Of a DNA stretch of 54,292 nt, positions 20,805-49,280 are shown one piece after another. The stretch lies in IMG/VR virus record IMGVR_UViG_3300025547_000008, positions 1 to 54,292 of that record. One strand, written 5' to 3'. Origin of the DNA: a virus. Numbering within the stretch: the stretch's first letter is position 1; each line of letters begins with the position of its first letter. The notes under the pieces were generated by a model that was not told where the DNA came from, did no database searches, and saw only the letters and a program-made list of their open reading frames with translations. The position numbers and the translations under genes were made by a program.

Positions 20805-22301
20805 TTATTTTTTATGAAAAATGAATATAGGTTCATATTTTCGGTAACTACCATCTACCTTTACACAATTTTTAACATTCTCCGGATTTAATCCAGTCAT
20901 TGTTGTCATTAACATTTTCAACTTACCCTTATATTCACCACCTAATGATTCTATAATAAATATACTATCTTCTTCTAATGGATGAAATTTATCTGCTCCG
21001 ATTTTGATTGAAGCTATATTCCAGAGTAAATAACGATTTGGTTTAAGATATTCAAATGCAGTTGTTAAAGTTGGTTTCAGGAAGTTATTTCTCCAATCTT
21101 CGTAAGCTGGGTAAGCCTTGAATGATTGCTCACTATCATCACTATACTGCTCACGGTCAAAGTATGGTGGGCTTGTGAAAACTAAATCAAGTGTTCCCTT
21201 ATACGTCTGAAAGTCTGGATTGTTCCCAATTAATTCTGAGCCGTCTTGGAAAACGTGATACGTGTTTTTGTGCTCTTCCCAAAATGAATTCGTTTCCAAT
21301 ACTTCACTATTAAAGAAATCTGCTACATATTCATATCTTGTTTTACCTAATTCGTCTATGTAATTATCCGTATTAGGGTCTGTGCCAATATAATGAATTC
21401 GCTTGAGTGATGACATAGCTCCGAGAATACGACCACCCCAACCTGCGGATGGGTCATACACATTGAGCACGTCTTGTGATATATGTTCTGTATATTTCTC
21501 ATATAAGTATCTTGCTGTTAATGGTGGGAAGTTTACGGCTGGTTGTCCAAGTCCTAATCTAAATGCTTGAATGCCGGCTGGGAATATCTTTTGTCCTAAA
21601 TTAAATACTCTAATAAAATATGTGAATTTCTCATCAGTTAATGTATCTAATGATTTTAAATTTGTAATATGAGATTCATCTATTAAATCTACATCAAATA
21701 ACCCTCTAATTTCATCTGAACTTAAAACTAAATGAGTTGGATTTTTTTCTTTTGATTGTCGAACTATGAAAAAGTTTTTTGATTGATTTTTTTGTATCCA
21801 TTCTATTCCACTACCATTACTTTCAACACACCTTGACCAAGAATACATACTATCTCGTTTAAATGTTCTTCGTATTATTTTATGAAAACTATCTCTGTAA
21901 TCAATTGTAAAATAATCGTAAATGGAAGTTGCGTTCTTTTTAGTTCCAATTTTGGTTTTCAACATGGTAGGAAAGAATTGATTTACACCACTTCCAAATT
22001 TATTGTAATTTTGTATTACGTCAAATTTGCCAGTATCTTCATCTTTGGTTAGAAATTGTTTTTTACCCTGATGTAGTGGGTAATCTCTCAATTTACGAAA
22101 GTTCTTTTTTATTTTATCAGTATTTTGGCCAATAGTTGGAGGCACACCCATAGTGTCCCATTCGTATATTACGAACTCTCGTAATTCATCTATCCATTGT
22201 GTAGTTTGTGTATCGTCTTTCCATAATAGTTCTTCAAAAGTTATATTAACTTCTGATTCTAATAGACGACTTCTTTCGTAGTAGTATTTTTTCATAACCA
22301 T
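20805..22301 (-). CDS. Phage DNA methyltransferase, TSPPY type (498 aa)
   Basis: SAM-binding motif DPSAGWGGRILGAM lies near residues 278-292. The catalytic motif DLVFTSPPYFDREQYSD lies near 370-386, and a Trp/Asn-rich motif LLWNIASIKI follows. TSPPY is common in N4-cytosine and some N6-adenine methyltransferases. The N-terminal 250 residues are an accessory or recognition region. The start is taken at 22301 (MVMKKYYYERS); the next Met at 22295 is equally possible. The longer frame from 22367 would lie inside the tmRNA and is rejected. No partner restriction enzyme is adjacent, so it probably protects phage DNA. Confidence 0.85.
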   Translation of the reverse strand: MVMKKYYYERSRLLESEVNITFEELLWKDDTQTTQWIDELREFVIYEWDTMGVPPTIGQNTDKIKKNFRKLRDYPLHQGKKQFLTKDEDTGKFDVIQNYNKFGSGVNQFFPTMLKTKIGTKKNATSIYDYFTIDYRDSFHKIIRRTFKRDSMYSWSRCVESNGSGIEWIQKNQSKNFFIVRQSKEKNPTHLVLSSDEIRGLFDVDLIDESHITNLKSLDTLTDEKFTYFIRVFNLGQKIFPAGIQAFRLGLGQPAVNFPPLTARYLYEKYTEHISQDVLNVYDPSAGWGGRILGAMSSLKRIHYIGTDPNTDNYIDELGKTRYEYVADFFNSEVLETNSFWEEHKNTYHVFQDGSELIGNNPDFQTYKGTLDLVFTSPPYFDREQYSDDSEQSFKAYPAYEDWRNNFLKPTLTTAFEYLKPNRYLLWNIASIKIGADKFHPLEEDSIFIIESLGGEYKGKLKMLMTTMTGLNPENVKNCVKVDGSYRKYEPIFIFHKK

Positions 22302-22310
22302 TTTTTGTAG

Positions 22311-22739
22311 TGGAGCCGGGCGGAATCGAACCGCCGTGTTCTCTGTTTTCTTCGTAAAGTCATTCACAACTTAGTTAATTTCTATTAGTAGCAATTAACA
22401 AACAACTATGTGGATTTCTTTTGCACAGAACATATCCAGTAACTGACATTTTATTTTTATTCTCTAAATATAAAAAGAGAGTGTGTTTAACTTCTTTTAT
22501 ACTCGGGTGTTAAACAACCCAAGAACTCATGCCGCTAAAGCGTAAGTTGATTGGTAATCTGAAGTAGGTTCAACATAATTGTCAAATCCCATTTCTGAAT
22601 TAGCTAAATGCCAATCCACTACCAAACCGTCTAGTGAATTATCACCATTTGAGTTTGTGAGTCTGTTGTAACAAGTCGTACTCAAACTTGTGTTGCACTC
22701 TATCGTCAAATAACATGAATCGAAACCAATTTCGGCCCC
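22311..22739 (-). ncRNA. ssrA: Transfer-messenger RNA (tmRNA)
   Basis: Both ends fit tmRNA. The 5' end GGGGCCG pairs with the 3' CGGCTCC in 7 bp including the G3-U pair that marks alanine identity. The 3' half has a T-arm GGCGG-TTCGATT-CCGCC and discriminator A. The next bases are CTA, not CCA, so CCA would be added afterwards. An internal reading frame ends YALAA-stop (stop near 22527), the canonical proteolysis-tag end. The region TTTGAGT...ACTCAAA around nt 55-92 can form the pseudoknot upstream of the resume codon. With resumption at GGT near nt 94, the tag would be about 39 residues. tmRNA with SmpB rescues stalled ribosomes and tags products for ClpXP-type proteases. Length is 429 nt. 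Confidence 0.92.
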
Positions 22740-22954: not shown

Positions 22955-24163
22955 TTAATTCATTAAATGTGGTTTAGCTTCTATAATACCAGCATTTGTT
23001 ACTTCTACAAATTCACATTTAGTTTGAAATTCTTCTATATTAGATGCACCTACATATGACATAGACGATCTTAATCCATCAGAAATATCATTTAATATAC
23101 GTTTTGTTTTACCCTTGTATTCAACACGAAACGAATAACCTTCTACATTCTTGCTTTCATTTCTTTTTAATTTGTTTTCAAGGGAGGCTGAACCGGAGTA
23201 TTTTTTATATAATCTTTCGTTTGGCCAGAGACCGTCTTTGTGAATTTCTCCAGGAGTTTCTTTTGTACCTGAGAGCAACGATCCCAGCATAACACTGTCA
23301 GCCCCAATGCCAATAGATTTACAGATATCAGCAATGTACCCAATCCCACCATCAGTAATAACGGGAACGTTATAAGTATCAGCAATGATGCAACAATCTT
23401 GAATGGAAGTGATATTAGGAACACCAACCCCGGTTTGTATGCGGGTAGAACACACTGAACCTCCTCCGATTCCCACTCGCAATCCATCAACTCCCCACTC
23501 ACATAAGTCCTTTGCCGCGGTTCCGGTTGCAATCGAACCTCCGATGATTTCAACATCTCCTCTAAGTCCATTTTTTAACTCCCTAATTGTATCTTTTACT
23601 AATTTATGATGTCCGTGTGCTACATCTATAAGTAGTACATTACATCCGTTAGCTACTAATTCTTGTGCTCGTTCTAAGTAATCTCCGGTGACTCCTATGG
23701 CTGCACATAATGGTTTTCTTCTCCATCGTTTATTCATCGTTTCCATCTCATCTACAAATGACATATCTTCCTTTAAGTCATCCCAATCATCTTTATTCGG
23801 AGTGAGTTGACTGCTAAGTAAATTTCCGTTGAACTTACTATTCCACTTTTCCCACGTTTCTTCATATGAACTAAAATCTTTACCAATACCAAAAAACTTA
23901 TCCCATTCAGTGTGAAGTTCGTTCATCATACGAGCTTGTTCTTCAATAGTATTGAATCTATGTAGAACACCAACTCCACCCCAGTCCATCATTTCTAATG
24001 CCATTTCGTAACCAGTAACAGTATCCATTGGAGAAGAAACTACTGGAATAGTTATTTCAGTATTCTTTGTGAAACGAGTTGTTAAGTTTATATCACTTCT
24101 GGATAGTATTTCACTATATTTTGGAACTATGCCAATATCGTCGTATGTTAATGCCTTTTTCAT
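22955..24163 (-). CDS. IMP dehydrogenase / GMP reductase family enzyme (402 aa)
   Basis: (beta/alpha)8 purine enzyme. It starts LTYDDIGIVPKYSEI, then VVSSPMDTVTGYEMALEM, the NAD/IMP region LLIDVAHGHH, GGSIATGTAA, and the catalytic loop GGGSVCSTRIQTGVGVP with Cys238. The phosphate-site loop is DGGIGYIADICKSI, and the flap region ends with GYSFRVEYKG. A normal IMPDH has a CBS-pair insert after about residue 90; here it is replaced by a short linker of about 40 residues. The C-terminal GLRSSMSYVGA is close to GMP reductase. Either a CBS-less IMPDH or a GMP reductase; it would adjust guanine nucleotide pools for replication. Confidence 0.85.
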   Translation of the reverse strand: MKKALTYDDIGIVPKYSEILSRSDINLTTRFTKNTEITIPVVSSPMDTVTGYEMALEMMDWGGVGVLHRFNTIEEQARMMNELHTEWDKFFGIGKDFSSYEETWEKWNSKFNGNLLSSQLTPNKDDWDDLKEDMSFVDEMETMNKRWRRKPLCAAIGVTGDYLERAQELVANGCNVLLIDVAHGHHKLVKDTIRELKNGLRGDVEIIGGSIATGTAAKDLCEWGVDGLRVGIGGGSVCSTRIQTGVGVPNITSIQDCCIIADTYNVPVITDGGIGYIADICKSIGIGADSVMLGSLLSGTKETPGEIHKDGLWPNERLYKKYSGSASLENKLKRNESKNVEGYSFRVEYKGKTKRILNDISDGLRSSMSYVGASNIEEFQTKCEFVEVTNAGIIEAKPHLMN

Positions 24164-35679: not shown

Positions 35680-36444
35680 TTAAAATAATCTTTGTTGTGT
35701 TTCTTTTATTCTTTTCTCTGCTATATCACAATACTCACTACTCATCTCACTACCTATCCAATTTCTATTATTTAAAATAGCCATCTTTGCTGTTGTTCCA
35801 CTTCCCATAAAAGGGTCGTAAACAATATCATTTTCATTACTCCAACTTATTATGTGGTCATTCGCTAATTGTTCTGGGAATTGAGCAACGTGATTAGCTG
35901 TATTATAACCGCCAGTGTTATACTTCCAAACATTACCTTTCTGTTTTTTATCTTTGGTTTTTAAAGATGTTTGTGTTTCTCTTAATCCTATACCAATTTC
36001 ATTAGTTTTCCTGCTTCTTTTTATTGTTTTGCCAGCGTGAATACAATCAATCATTAAAGGATTAAAAGACTTTGGTTTTTCTTTACTGAAAACGAACATA
36101 TATTCAAACTCTTGCTCATATCTTTTATGTGTTAGTGGTATAAAATTTGCTTTTTGGTAAATCATAGTGTCATTCAGCCTAAATCCACATTCTTTTAAAA
36201 ATAATGCTTGTTTAAAAGATGTTCCTGTCTCACTTCCTTTTATTGTTGCATCTCCAACAATCCAAACTACTACACCGCCTTCTTTAGTTACTCTATACAA
36301 TTCTTTAGCTATGCTTTCAAAATCAAAACTATAACCATTGTACGTCCTTAAATTGTCATAAGGTGGAGATGTTACTGTTAAGTCAATAAAGTTATCTTCC
36401 ATTCTTGCCATTGTATCAAGGCAGTCTTCATTATAGAGTTTCAT
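35680..36444 (-). CDS. DNA methyltransferase, TSPPY type (254 aa)
   Basis: MKLYNEDCLDTMARMEDNFI, then VTSPPYDNLRTYNGYSF (motif IV) and YDPFMGSGTTAKMAILNNRN (motif I) near the end: a permuted beta-class amino-methyltransferase. TSPPY suggests N4-cytosine methylation. It follows the AAGGAGAAATAA leader shared by the whole array and ends in QQRLF. It probably protects phage DNA against host restriction. One of four array copies. Confidence 0.88.
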   Translation of the reverse strand: MKLYNEDCLDTMARMEDNFIDLTVTSPPYDNLRTYNGYSFDFESIAKELYRVTKEGGVVVWIVGDATIKGSETGTSFKQALFLKECGFRLNDTMIYQKANFIPLTHKRYEQEFEYMFVFSKEKPKSFNPLMIDCIHAGKTIKRSRKTNEIGIGLRETQTSLKTKDKKQKGNVWKYNTGGYNTANHVAQFPEQLANDHIISWSNENDIVYDPFMGSGTTAKMAILNNRNWIGSEMSSEYCDIAEKRIKETQQRLF

Positions 36445-36455
36445 TTTATTTCTCC

Positions 36456-37409
36456 TTAAAATAATCTTTGTTGTGTAGTATGTTTTTCAATTCGCTTTTT
36501 AGCTATCTCAAAATAATCTTTGTCTATTTCAATCCCTATAAAGTCTCTATTCAAGTTTTTACAAGCTACTCCTGTTGTTCCACTTCCCATTGTTAAATCA
36601 ACTACTGAATCATTTTCATTGCTAAAAGTCTTCATCAAATCTTCAAGCAACAATACAGGCTTTTGCGTTGGATGGTAACCGTCATAATCCTTTTTGTATT
36701 TTAAAATATTTGATTTGTATTTTTTACCTTCCCATAGGTTAAAGGTGCTTGCGAACCTTTTAAAACAATTAAAATGTATTTCCTTTAACTCTTGGTATTC
36801 CCTATTAAAAAAACCAGTTACTTCTCTTAATTTTAAATAATGTTTTTCAGGTATCATTGATGGTTGCAATGAACTACACCAATGGTAAGCGGCTCCACCG
36901 TGTCCTTTTGTATTTAATCCACAAACACCACACATTTCATCAAGTGTTAGTTTTGCTTTTTTACGTTCTATATTTAAGTATTCTCTATAACTATCATCTT
37001 CACCATAAGTTCCGTGAGAGCCTTTGCTAAAAACTAAAACATCTTCATAATAATTTAAAGGTGCTTTTTTAGCTGTTAAAGCATTTGCAAAATGGTCTTT
37101 CTCCCATATCATACTATAATTAAATGGTAAGTTTGGCAGTGCTTTATTTATTAATTCATTTGTAAATGGTTGCTGTGCTGTTAATATCATTTTGCCGTTT
37201 TTTCTTAAAATACGATTTGCGATTTCCATTATTTTATTAATATCAATAACACTATCCCATTCAGTTTTCCCTTTCATTCCATGATTTATGCTTTCACTAT
37301 TTCCTAACCCTTTAACAGTTCCATAAGGTAAATCAGTCAATATTAAATCAACACTTCCATCTTTTATATGCTTGTGTTGTTCTAAACAGTCACCTTTATA
37401 GAGTTTCAT
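36456..37409 (-). CDS. DNA methyltransferase, DLPY type (317 aa)
   Basis: Motif IV is TDLPYGTVKGLGNSE, with Leu in place of Pro: a divergent DPPY form. Motif I is LTMGSGTTGVACKNLNRDFI near residue 280. It ends TTQQRLF. A longer central insert than in the TSPPY paralogs holds a Cys pair (CGVCGLNTKG) and is a probable recognition region. It is very similar at both ends to the 37532-38464 copy, so the two are a recent duplication with diverged centres (target recognition may differ). Confidence 0.88.
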   Translation of the reverse strand: MKLYKGDCLEQHKHIKDGSVDLILTDLPYGTVKGLGNSESINHGMKGKTEWDSVIDINKIMEIANRILRKNGKMILTAQQPFTNELINKALPNLPFNYSMIWEKDHFANALTAKKAPLNYYEDVLVFSKGSHGTYGEDDSYREYLNIERKKAKLTLDEMCGVCGLNTKGHGGAAYHWCSSLQPSMIPEKHYLKLREVTGFFNREYQELKEIHFNCFKRFASTFNLWEGKKYKSNILKYKKDYDGYHPTQKPVLLLEDLMKTFSNENDSVVDLTMGSGTTGVACKNLNRDFIGIEIDKDYFEIAKKRIEKHTTQQRLF

Positions 37410-37424
37410 TTTATTTCTCCTTTG

Positions 37425-37520
37425 TTAAATTGTTCCGTAAACAATACTAACAACAATTATTACCGTGATTGCTATTAATCCAAAAACAAATACTATATTA
37501 TCATCAAGTTCAATCTTCAT
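37425..37520 (-). CDS. Small single-TM peptide (31 aa)
   Basis: Starts MKIELDDNIVFVFGLIAITV and continues as a hydrophobic helix to the stop. The ATG is preceded by AAGGAAAAATAAA, and the gene sits between two methyltransferase copies. A palindrome ATTGTT...AACAAT lies at its 3' end. Membrane peptide of unknown role. Confidence 0.65.
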   Translation of the reverse strand: MKIELDDNIVFVFGLIAITVIIVVSIVYGTI

Positions 37521-37531
37521 TTTATTTTTCC

Positions 37532-38464
37532 TTAAAATAATCTTTCTTGTTTAGTATGTTTTTCAATTCTTTCTTCTGCAATTTTAAAATAGTTTTCATC
37601 TAATTCAATACCTATAAAATCACGATTTGTATTCATACAAGCAACTCCTGTACTTCCACTACCCATTGTTAAATCAACTACTAAATCGTTTTCATTACTA
37701 AATGTCTTAATCAAATCTTCAAGCAACAATACAGGCTTTTGCGTTGGATGGTAACCGTCATAATCCTTTTTGTATTTTAGTATATTGCTTTTGTATTTGT
37801 TGCCTTCCCATAAGTTAAATGTACTTGTATGTCTTTCATTTATCTTTTCAAGCTCACTGTAATTTAAAAATCCATCCATATTATTAATTCGGTATTCTGT
37901 AATTAAAGCTAAGTATGTTTCTTTTTTGCAAAGTTCAAATTGTGAGCTTTTTATTCTAAAAACGTGGTCAGCTCTTTGTCCTATTGCCTCAATTACATTT
38001 TTCTTTTTAAGTCCAATAAAAGAAAGCACGTTACCAAAATACGTTCTAAGTGGGTGCAAGTTTTCAACATCATACTTTTTGCTAAAAACTAAAACATCTT
38101 CAATATAACTTACAGGTGCTTTATTTGACACTAAACAATTTGCAAAGTGCATTTTATCCCAGTACATATTATAGCTATGAGGTAAGTTAGGAATAGCTTT
38201 TGATATTAATTCAGTTGTAAAAGGTTGGTTAGCTGTTAAAATCATCTTGCCATTTTTTCTTAATATCCTATTGGCTATCTGCATGACTTGATCGGTATCA
38301 ATAGTAATATCCCACTCAGAAACATTATATTTTTTTTCTTTTGCTACCCTGCTATTACCCAACCCTTTAACCGTTCCATAAGGCAAGTCCGTAAGCACCA
38401 AATCTACACTTCCATCTTTTATATGCTTGTGTTGTTCTAAACAGTCACCTTTATAGAGTTTCAT
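37532..38464 (-). CDS. DNA methyltransferase, DLPY type, second copy (310 aa)
   Basis: Same layout as the 36456 gene: MKLYKGDCLEQHKHIKDGSV, TDLPYGTVKGLGNSRV and LTMGSGSTGVACMNTNRDFI near the C-terminus, tail TKQERLF. The start at 38464 is chosen because the longer frame (38497) lacks the array leader and adds an unrelated 11-residue N-terminus. The central region differs (NVIEAIGQRADHVFRIKSS), so the recognition domain differs while the catalytic ends are nearly identical. Probably an orphan methyltransferase for protection. Confidence 0.88.
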   Translation of the reverse strand: MKLYKGDCLEQHKHIKDGSVDLVLTDLPYGTVKGLGNSRVAKEKKYNVSEWDITIDTDQVMQIANRILRKNGKMILTANQPFTTELISKAIPNLPHSYNMYWDKMHFANCLVSNKAPVSYIEDVLVFSKKYDVENLHPLRTYFGNVLSFIGLKKKNVIEAIGQRADHVFRIKSSQFELCKKETYLALITEYRINNMDGFLNYSELEKINERHTSTFNLWEGNKYKSNILKYKKDYDGYHPTQKPVLLLEDLIKTFSNENDLVVDLTMGSGSTGVACMNTNRDFIGIELDENYFKIAEERIEKHTKQERLF

Positions 38465-38465
38465 T

Positions 38466-38651
38466 TTATTTTTCCTTAAATGTTTTAAGTTTTCCATTTT
38501 GAGCTGAATACCATTTGTTCATATACCTAAATTCAAATCCTTTATCTCTCATACAAATAGCAATTTCTTCACCATGTTTAGTTTTTAAAACAACTCCGTT
38601 ATAAATCTCTTGCAGGATTATTGTGCCTTTTTTGTCTGTTGTTACTTTCAT
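38466..38651 (-). CDS. Small protein (61 aa), unknown
   Basis: The start at 38651 (MKVTTDKKGTI) is used because GGAGAAATAAAATGA fits the operon's leaders; the longer frame from 38690 is ignored. Contains YNGVVLKTKHGEEIAICMRD, beta-rich. Its start overlaps the upstream stop in an ATGA junction. No family is recognised. Confidence 0.65.
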   Translation of the reverse strand: MKVTTDKKGTIILQEIYNGVVLKTKHGEEIAICMRDKGFEFRYMNKWYSAQNGKLKTFKEK

Positions 38652-41732: not shown

Positions 41733-42371
41733 TTAATTTAAAATTGTCCATTTTTTGTCATTACCTAAATCATTCATAACCTTTTTATATTTTAAATTTT
41801 TAATTTCTCCTGTTATATTATTTTTTACTTTTACTTTATCATTTCTTTCGTACATTTTATCATTTTTAAACGGAACTATTTTTTTCTCATAATCAAATAT
41901 TGTTTTTCCGTTAAGATGTGAAATTTCATGTTGTACAGCGATTGCTTCAAGTAACCGTAAATCTTTATCATCTGCATTTTCTTTTTCCCAAATTCCTTTA
42001 CCACTGTTTGTTGAAACTCCACTAAAATACCAATTACTTTCTTCTTGTTCTGTATGTACTATAATATTCTTATATCGTTTGGTGTGTACACCTTTCTTTG
42101 GATATGAGAGACATCCCTCATAAAAATCTATTTCGTCCCATTTTTCAATTACTGTTGGGTTGATTAGTATAAGTGGTTCTCTAACATTTACTACTGCTAC
42201 TTGAGCGTCTATATTGCACTGTGGGGCTGCCAATCCGATTCCCGATTTATTTTTACTTAAAATCTGGAATAATTCTGTTGCTATTTTTAACCCATCTTCA
42301 ACTGAAACTTTTTTGAGTTTCTTATTTATAACCGGATTATGTTCTTTGTTGCAATTAATTATTTTTCGCAT
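41733..42371 (-). CDS. def: Peptide deformylase (212 aa)
   Basis: All three peptide deformylase motifs are present: GIGLAAPQ at 44-51, EGCLSYP at 85-91 (metal ligand Cys87) and HEISH at 148-152 (metal ligands His148 and His152, catalytic Glu149). It removes the N-formyl group from new proteins. The C-terminal 45 residues after NGKTIFDY are extra and basic (KNDKMYERNDKVKVKNNITG), longer than a minimal enzyme. Phage deformylases are known in marine viruses. It is adjacent to the mobile endonuclease and its structured leader. Confidence 0.92.
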   Translation of the reverse strand: MRKIINCNKEHNPVINKKLKKVSVEDGLKIATELFQILSKNKSGIGLAAPQCNIDAQVAVVNVREPLILINPTVIEKWDEIDFYEGCLSYPKKGVHTKRYKNIIVHTEQEESNWYFSGVSTNSGKGIWEKENADDKDLRLLEAIAVQHEISHLNGKTIFDYEKKIVPFKNDKMYERNDKVKVKNNITGEIKNLKYKKVMNDLGNDKKWTILN

Positions 42372-47648: not shown

Positions 47649-49280
47649 TTACATCATGCCTGGCATTCCACCCATTCCGCCTGGTGGCATCATAGGTGAT
47701 GTGTCGTCACTTGGAATTTCCGTAATAACGGCCTCCGTTGTGAGTAACATACCAGCGATTGAACTTGCGTTCTCTACTGCTACACGTGTAACCTTAGCTG
47801 GATCAATAATGCCAGCCTTGAACATATCTACATATTCTCCACTACGAGCATCAAACCCAGTTCCATTTTTACTATTAAGAACTTCACGTGCTACGACGGA
47901 AGATTCTTCACCAGCATTTTCACAGATTTGACGAAGTGGTGCTTGAAGTGCTTTTCTCATGATATTCACTCCAACCATTTGTTCATCATCTACTGATACA
48001 TCGTCAAGAGCTGAAATAGCACGAAGTAGAGTAACACCACCACCAGCGACGATACCTTCTTCAACTGCTGCTCGGGTTGCGTGTAACGCATCTTCCACAC
48101 GAGCTTTCTTCTCTTTCATTTCAACTTCAGTTGGTGCTCCAACATTTAGTACTGCAACTCCACCACTTAGTTTAGCAAGTCGCTCTTGTAACTTCTCAAT
48201 ATCATAATCGGAAGTGGATTTTTCAATCTGAACTTTGATTTCATTAATACGAGATTTAATTGTATCTACATCACCACTACCACCAACGACGGTTGTATTG
48301 TCTTTGTCGGATACAACACGTGAACAGGTTCCCATAAAATCAAGAGTTGTGTTCTCTAATTTATGACCAGCTTCTTCAGAAATTACGGTTGCTCCGGTGA
48401 GTGCCGCAATATCTTCTAACATTGATTTACGTCTGTCTCCAAATCCTGGTGCCTTCACTGCAAGAACTTTGAATGTTCCACGGAGTTTATTCACTACGAG
48501 TGCCGCGAGTGCTTCACCATCTACATCTTCAGCTACTATGACGATTGGTTTTCCTGTCTGAACTACTTTCTCCAAAATAGGTAGAACGTCTTTCACATTG
48601 GAAATCTTCTTGTCATGTAATAAGATATATGGATCTTCAAGAACTGCTTCCATATTATCAGAATCGGTTACGAAGTATGGTGAAAGATAACCACGATCAA
48701 ATTGCATTCCTTCTACGAAATCCAAATATGTTTCAGCTGTCTTACTTTCTTCTACAGTAATAACACCGTCTTTACCAACTTTTTCCATTGCCTCAGCAAT
48801 CTTTCCACCAATCTCACTATCATCATTTGCTGAGATTGTAGCTACTTGAGCAATTTGATTTGAATCTGGAAGGTCTTTAGCTGCGTTACGGATGGACTCT
48901 ACAACTTTACTTGATGCAAAATCAATCCCACGTTTAATGGACATTGGATTTGCACCCGCTGTAACATTCTTCACTCCTTCGTTTATGATGGCCTGTGCGA
49001 GAACCGTGGCGGTAGTTGTACCATCACCAGCTATATCAGATGTTCTTGACGCAACTTCTTTCAATAACTCTGCCCCTACACTTTCAAACTTATCTTCAAG
49101 TTCAATTTCCTTTGCTACTGTAACCCCATCTTTGGTTATGAGCGGAGAACCGAACTTCTTTTCAATAACTACATTCCTACCCTTTGGACCTAATGTAACC
49201 TTAACCGCGTTTGCAAGTTGGTCTACACCAGACATCAAAGCTGAGTGGGATTGAGCATTGTATTTTATTTCTTTAGCCAT
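47649..49280 (-). CDS. groEL: GroEL chaperonin (543 aa)
   Basis: Full-length canonical Gro[22 protein letters not shown], the ATP-binding [14 protein letters not shown] near 86-100, [11 protein letters not shown], an intact apical domain, the equatorial region and the C-terminal [10 protein letters not shown] tail. No essential residue appears lost. GroEL folds proteins in a 14-mer with GroES, which lies just upstream (groES-groEL order in transcription). Phage-encoded GroELs are known, but usually as single genes; here GroEL, GroES and Hsp20 are together. High similarity to cellular GroEL suggests acquisition from the host lineage. Confidence 0.98.

Follow-up and report, generated by a model that had tools for sequence, protein, structure and literature searches.

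We identified a genuine one-piece tmRNA gene in the window, which is the whole stretch of DNA analyzed here, a 54,292-base IMG/VR virus record. Its predicted tag is 39 residues long and therefore falls outside the range of 8–35 residues reported for tmRNA tags (PMC8012679), the same range that the preliminary description had given for most bacterial tags. Relatives with tags of this kind were recovered from many other environmental phage sequences, and their patterns of variation suggest that these phages probably encode a functional one-piece tmRNA that works with the host's SmpB and adds a phage-specific extended tag under protein-level selection. The coordinates of the features discussed below are collected in Table 1.

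Table 1. Features of the tmRNA locus in the window (positions are those of the window)
Feature	Coordinates	Strand	Basis or remark
tmRNA (ssrA), one-piece	22308..22739	-	RF00023, 56 bits; tmRNAs of syntenic relatives 70–91 bits
Acceptor stem, 5' strand GGGGCCG	22733..22739	-	Compensatory pairs across relatives
Acceptor stem, 3' strand CGGCTCC	22312..22318	-	Pairs with the 5' strand
Discriminator A, then CTA	22311, then 22310–22308	-	3' of the acceptor stem
T arm GGCGG-TTCGATT-CCGCC	22319..22335	-	All 5 pairs with both-side changes among relatives
PK1 (ACAAGT/ACTTGT; TGAGT/ACTCA)	22658..22691	-	Pairing assigned by eye; ends 11 nt before the resume codon
PK2 (CTTGGGT/ACCCGAG; GTTTAAC/GTTAAAC)	22485..22523	-	Close behind the stop codon; both stems covary
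Tag frame GDNSLDGLVVDWHLANSEMGFDNYVEPTSDYQSTYALAA	22527..22646 (39 codons, 22646–22530; TGA, 22529–22527)	-	Family-wide coding selection
Resume codon GGT	22644..22646	-	Canonical place, just after PK1
Tag core GLVVDWHLA, codons 7–15	22602..22628	-	Conserved across the family
C-terminal element QSTYALAA (family QPTYAYA(A))	22530..22553	-	Last 8 codons constrained
Resume-codon hairpin GGTGA-TAAT-TCACT, five pairs	22633..22646	-	Fully paired in all 35 rows
Intra-tag hairpin, GATTGGC-ATTTA-GCTAATTC region	22597..22616	-	Window MFE
Long-range stem in the tag frame, ~22618–22628 with ~22551–22558	22551..22628	-	Window MFE, z -3.05
DNA methyltransferase-like protein, 498 aa (downstream gene)	20805..22301	-	PHROG 498, E 1.5e-9; Pfam N6_N4_Mtase below cut-off
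IMP dehydrogenase / GMP reductase family (upstream gene)	22955..24163	-	Pfam PF00478, E 1.2e-104

The 432-nt element matched the Rfam tmRNA model RF00023 across model positions 1–374 of 374 (E = 2.3e-19), and its score exceeds the cut-off of 47 bits. This agrees with the preliminary description, which had placed a tmRNA at 22311–22739. The two kinds of detection tools diverged, since ARAGORN reported no tmRNA in the window and the covariance model recovered it. The matching acceptor halves, the G3-U pair and the T arm that had been noticed are all present. Indeed, G3-U, which confers alanine acceptor identity, is invariant in 78/78 relatives, and the rest of the acceptor stem presents compensatory changes. 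The 3' end reads CTA after the discriminator and thus CCA is not encoded in the window tmRNA; it is encoded in just three of the 85 family tmRNAs. The internal frame of about 39 residues ending in YALAA was recovered as well, and its resume codon lies at RNA position 94, far from YALAA. Some 30 residues do separate the Bacteroidota-like start (GD or GE) from the conventional end, as had been proposed, and long tags are found family-wide. The extra length of the putative "inserted stretch" is real, although insertion is only one possible description of it, because these codons fold into an RNA domain that would be translated throughout. The C-terminal signal of a hydrophobic residue followed by Ala(-Ala) is present as YALAA in the window, with penultimate residues varying in the family. 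Since 8–35 residues is a reported range and not a defining rule, membership in RF00023 stands despite the length of the tag.

Related tmRNAs were collected in several ways. Homologues of the downstream methyltransferase-like gene led to several contigs with a tmRNA in the same place and a tag of the same kind, and a scan with the back-translated nine-residue core GLVxDWHLA yielded 63 stretches, of which those examined were tmRNAs. Because a scan keyed to the core preselects the core, a second scan was keyed to the PK2 stem alone, which lies outside the tag. This yielded 103 stretches, and a long tag was present in every one with a complete tag region. Both scans combined gave 86 distinct full-length phage tmRNAs, window included. 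One of them (L101) has lost its stop codon and was left out of the tag statistics, leaving 85 tags; in its tag region, from ~5230, TAA is replaced by CAA and the tag would reach 49 residues, which could be genuine or reflect a sequencing error. The 85 tags span 34–43 residues, 72 of them exceeding the reported maximum of 35, and share the form G[DE]xSLxGLxIDWHLA, a variable linker and QPTYAYA(A). The family is diverse, with 70 sequences left at <90% identity and a mean pairwise identity of 65%, and the order and strand of the neighboring genes are kept across relatives. Within the core, D and W are found in all 85 tags, H in 83, L in 81 and A in 82. The last residue is Ala in 84/85, but the C-termini are variable (YALAA, YASA, YANA, YAAA, HVYA, VYAS), which indicates that the strict LAA signal of ClpX is not kept.

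Searches elsewhere yielded little. Neither the tmRNA, at the DNA level, nor the tag had a match in the GenBank phage set, the tag had no credible match in the PDB, and searching for relatives via the upstream IMPDH gene returned identical contigs only. In bacterial genomes, seven of the eight hits to the tag motif fell in protein frames of no relation to it. Only L153 (NHIV01000037.1) was a genuine hit, on a 7.5-kb contig with phage-like genes binned with the MAG bacterium TMED198, which has a tmRNA of its own with the short tag ADYGYAAAA; the contig is probably a contaminant of this bin or a phage of TMED198.

The tag presents several signatures of a translated sequence. The spacing between the Trp codon and PK2 spans 81–108 nt, with length differences divisible by three in 72 of 74 cases, whereas the spacing from PK2 to the 3' end falls about equally into the three length classes (26/26/22). 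The pN/pS ratio is 0.42 in frame 0, 1.19 in frame +1 and 1.38 in frame +2, and these and the following ratios are descriptive because the sequence pairs are phylogenetically non-independent. By part, the ratio is 0.42 for the whole front module, 0.13 for the VIDWHLA core, 0.51 for the linker and 0.20 for the last eight codons (0.42, 0.13, 0.47 and 0.20, respectively, when restricted to RNAs carrying the PK2 pattern), and a ratio of the same type in the downstream non-coding RNA of the same molecules is 0.79–0.86. Outside the hairpin columns, diversity is 0.14 at codon position 1, 0.04 at position 2 and 0.31 at position 3. Insertions within codons 2–4 are 3 nt long, and the common variants of the unpaired hairpin loop AYYTR are synonymous for His-Leu. 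In 59 of the 85 sequences, a stop codon lies in frame within the stretch from the 5' end to the resume codon, which indicates that the frame begins near the resume codon and does not belong to a longer protein gene. Taken together, these results indicate that the tag is under protein-level selection.

The same codons are also structured as RNA. For a composite alignment, we cut 35 distinct rows at conserved anchors; it covers the acceptor, the resume-codon hairpin, PK2 and the T arm. In this alignment, 99.8% of the cells are paired and 13 of the 31 pairs have changed on both sides, and no shuffle or slide was comparable; the PK2 rows were picked by a pattern fixing much of the stem, so that invariant PK2 pairs carry little information, whereas those that vary could have been disrupted. 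The resume-codon hairpin presents a C-G to U-A double change in four sequences, including the window. The hairpin inside the tag presents U-A to C-G changes in three sequences (read by eye) and is lost in two. For the long-range stem, which joins codons 7–10 to codons near QPTYAYA, permuted partners were as good in 0/200 trials, and folding energy was below that of synonymous resampling in 35/35 sequences (mean z -2.9); this evidence is strong but not decisive, since kinship can lift sequences above permutations. The core codons GGG and TTG are nearly fixed beyond coding need, which fits the long-range stem, and the conservation of the core is partly RNA-structural. A structured resume codon was unexpected and counts against a functional tmRNA, as pairing around the resume codon has been put forward as the reason why an E. 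coli mutant is inactive (PMC2481249). The hairpin bears on how the ribosome finds its frame on tmRNA.

We propose the following scheme. The host would add CCA, and the host alanyl-tRNA synthetase would charge the tmRNA, which host SmpB would then deliver to ribosomes that have stalled on a truncated mRNA. After adding the charged alanine, the ribosome would switch to GGT at 22646, read through the folded coding domain and stop just before PK2, such that the predicted added peptide is A-GDNSLDGLVVDWHLA...YALAA. No SmpB was found in 50 family records, which are fragments, and a host partner would therefore be needed; the earlier suggestion that the phage brings its own means of ribosome rescue applies to the tmRNA but not to self-sufficiency. 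The further suggestion, that the phage may redirect or modify the tag, is an inference about the fate of tagged proteins. We tentatively consider that the tag may be a bipartite degron, although we regard this as somewhat less likely than otherwise. Here, the hydrophobic or aromatic-Ala(-Ala) end would be a protease signal, and an adaptor or unfoldase would dock at the GLxIDWHLA core, 20-odd residues upstream of the end, a role of the core suggested by its conservation. The scheme is modeled on the E. coli tag, separate parts of which are used by SspB and ClpX. The phage could thereby set the speed of removal of tagged proteins, or the protease involved. Because the tag codons form an RNA domain replacing helix 5, the long frame would serve RNA and peptide together. 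It is possible, if rather doubtful, that a phage lineage has remodeled its tmRNA into a dual-purpose element, in which a folded RNA domain at the resume codon is translated in full and also encodes a phage-specific recognition peptide that gives rescue products a fate (adaptor, protease or sink) unlike that conferred by the host tag.

Other explanations differ in where translation resumes and in what the additional codons are for. It is possible to place the resume codon 45–81 nt downstream, which would yield an ordinary tag of 11–24 residues (e.g., GDYQPTYAYAA) and leave the upstream module as untranslated RNA. In roughly half of the relatives, ARAGORN calls such truncated tags, reporting no tmRNA for many other loci, and its starts lie 45, 48, 60, 72, 75, 78 or 81 nt downstream of the canonical codon, with A at -4 in 29/29. 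In E. coli tmRNA, A86 at this position sets the frame (PMC2481249). The canonical codon (GGC in 70 of the 85 sequences, AGC in eight, GGT in four and GAC in three) likewise has A at -4, and T at -1, in 85/85; the -4 A therefore cannot separate the two sites and is probably part of ARAGORN's site choice. The canonical start is favored because it occupies a homologous position in all 85 sequences, at RNA position 90–96 from the 5' end, whereas the ARAGORN sites are non-homologous, and because the module upstream of those sites presents coding selection, with the codon periodicity, the low pN/pS of module and core and the 3-nt insertions reported above. For two Bacteroidota tmRNAs, ARAGORN's own calls place the resume codon at position 94, like the canonical site here. 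A downstream start is thus very improbable. The main rival holds instead that the extra codons serve the RNA: the folded domain replaces helix 5, the frame merely stays open, and only the C-terminal degron matters. The covarying resume-codon hairpin, the coevolving long-range stem with its low folding energies and the fixed GGG and TTG codons are all expected under this explanation. The core, however, combines a pN/pS of 0.13 with free third positions, and the loop variants are mostly synonymous, a pattern that RNA need alone does not predict. RNA folding is thus probably not the whole story, and we consider this explanation unlikely, though it carries more weight than any other alternative.

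The tag could also protect or divert rather than degrade, with fragments being spared from host ClpXP, clogging it, or being sent to a compartment chosen by the phage. The variability of the C-terminus would be compatible with this, as would the recurrence of lengthened tags in other phages (32 residues in L265 and 24 in L275, see below). Yet the nearly universal final Ala and the constrained last eight codons are what is expected of a C-terminal degron, the window tag ends in the canonical LAA, and a ClpP-like protein is encoded in two of 50 records; we regard protection or diversion as improbable. Finally, the low score of the window under the covariance model and the lost stop codon of L101 could point to a remnant, an assembly artefact or a host tmRNA that was captured and whose tag was disrupted. 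A further 85 distinct copies, which retain synteny, covary in their stems and show coding selection, refute this explanation for the family, and its likelihood is negligible. Our preferred reading thus remains a functional tmRNA with an extended, selected tag.

Gene matches elsewhere in the window include baseplate-wedge and tape-measure proteins, GroEL, DNA ligase, peptide deformylase and several DNA methyltransferases. Three adjacent N6/N4 DNA methyltransferase genes are found at 35680–38497, and the peptide deformylase (41733–42371) and a full GroEL gene (47649–49280) represent further functions in protein production and folding beside the tmRNA. Two contigs of >100 kb that also present a long-tag tmRNA (L297 and L298) encode ClpP-like proteases of 209 and 202 aa, too few among the 50 records to carry a model. 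AAA_2 hits in 13 of 29 records were considered as possible ClpX and dropped, the one examined being an AAA_5/MoxR-type ATPase. Among records with a capsid gene, the nearest cultured relatives by capsid are a Microcystis phage and Flavobacterium phages (49–51%). Based on these similarities, a Bacteroidota host is plausible; Flavobacterium phage immuto 3-5A presented no tmRNA match.

The finding that 72 of 85 phage tags exceed 35 residues, with a core under strong selection, suggests that the tag itself is evolving, beyond the release of ribosomes. A long conserved tag makes it testable why phages carry tmRNA. Because ARAGORN misses or truncates these tags, phage surveys based on this program undercount or misstate phage tags.

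Phage tmRNAs are known already, and what is new here is a folded, conserved tag of more than 35 residues. In two accounts, tmRNAs are described from mycobacteriophages, Bacillus phage G, the marine phage Melnitz and others (PMC4131195, PMC9004378), with 402 phages counted (PMC9004378). The family resembles these in presenting a complete ssrA gene in a phage genome and in the expected use of host SmpB (PMC4131195, PMC9004378). In contrast, the tmRNA of Melnitz is two-piece and alphaproteobacterial (PMC9004378), and no extended conserved tag is described in the available parts of these accounts (PMC4131195, PMC9004378) or, within the partial coverage of our literature search, elsewhere. Two matches in huge phages lack a tag region and apparently consist of the tRNA-like domain alone (L268, LR756508.1:414804-414915, 112 nt; L269, LR756511.1:2250-2386, 137 nt), which may be compared with mycobacteriophage DS6A (PMC4131195). 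An uncultured 484-kb phage with a capsid protein sharing 53% identity with that of the family (L265, LR756508.1:92434-92880) presents a 32-residue tag, ADYESAGFTAEDFAQMDGESLYHGSERKPAAV, when read from the canonical position, and ARAGORN calls GRRKPLSW; a scan for relatives of this tag gave one hit, an unrelated protein. On a 288-kb IMG/VR contig (L275), ARAGORN calls the 24-residue tag AEEKSSFTFADAMAFVGADLAVAA.

The tag of Mesoplasma florum is about 27 residues long. Like the family's tags, those of Mollicutes are longer and end in Tyr-Ala-aromatic-Ala (NYAFA there, TYAYA here), and the long tag of M. florum, read by Lon (PMC9382460), is a precedent for a tag addressed to another protease. The Mollicutes tags nevertheless remain shorter, differ in sequence and belong to cellular genomes, and no Lon gene was found in 29 family records. 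In the E. coli ssrA tag, the adaptor SspB binds upstream and ClpX recognizes the C-terminus (PMC9382460). The family would share this bipartite logic if its core is a docking site, although the E. coli tag has 11 residues in all and the DWHLA core lacks a recognized partner.

The closest comparison is with the one-piece tmRNAs of Bacteroidota. In the sampled chromosomes, tags read by pattern, a reading that failed in some genomes, have 8–9 residues (GEYNYALAA, GENNYALAA, GDYNYAMAA, ANDYSYAMAA). The preliminary description was thus correct that such tags are short, but a start with G-E/D holds only in part, as about a third begin with G and the others with A or D. Phage L007, a distant relative, also has a short tag (GEYQYMAAA); its neighboring genes are related at 40–50% and its methyltransferase at 73%. 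The family shares with the Bacteroidota type the G3-U pair, a PK1 followed by a resume codon with A at -4, a PK2, a G-D/E start and a hydrophobic-Ala-Ala end. It differs in having 34–43 codons instead of 8–9, a folded RNA domain within the frame, a hairpin on the resume codon and a stop codon directly before PK2.
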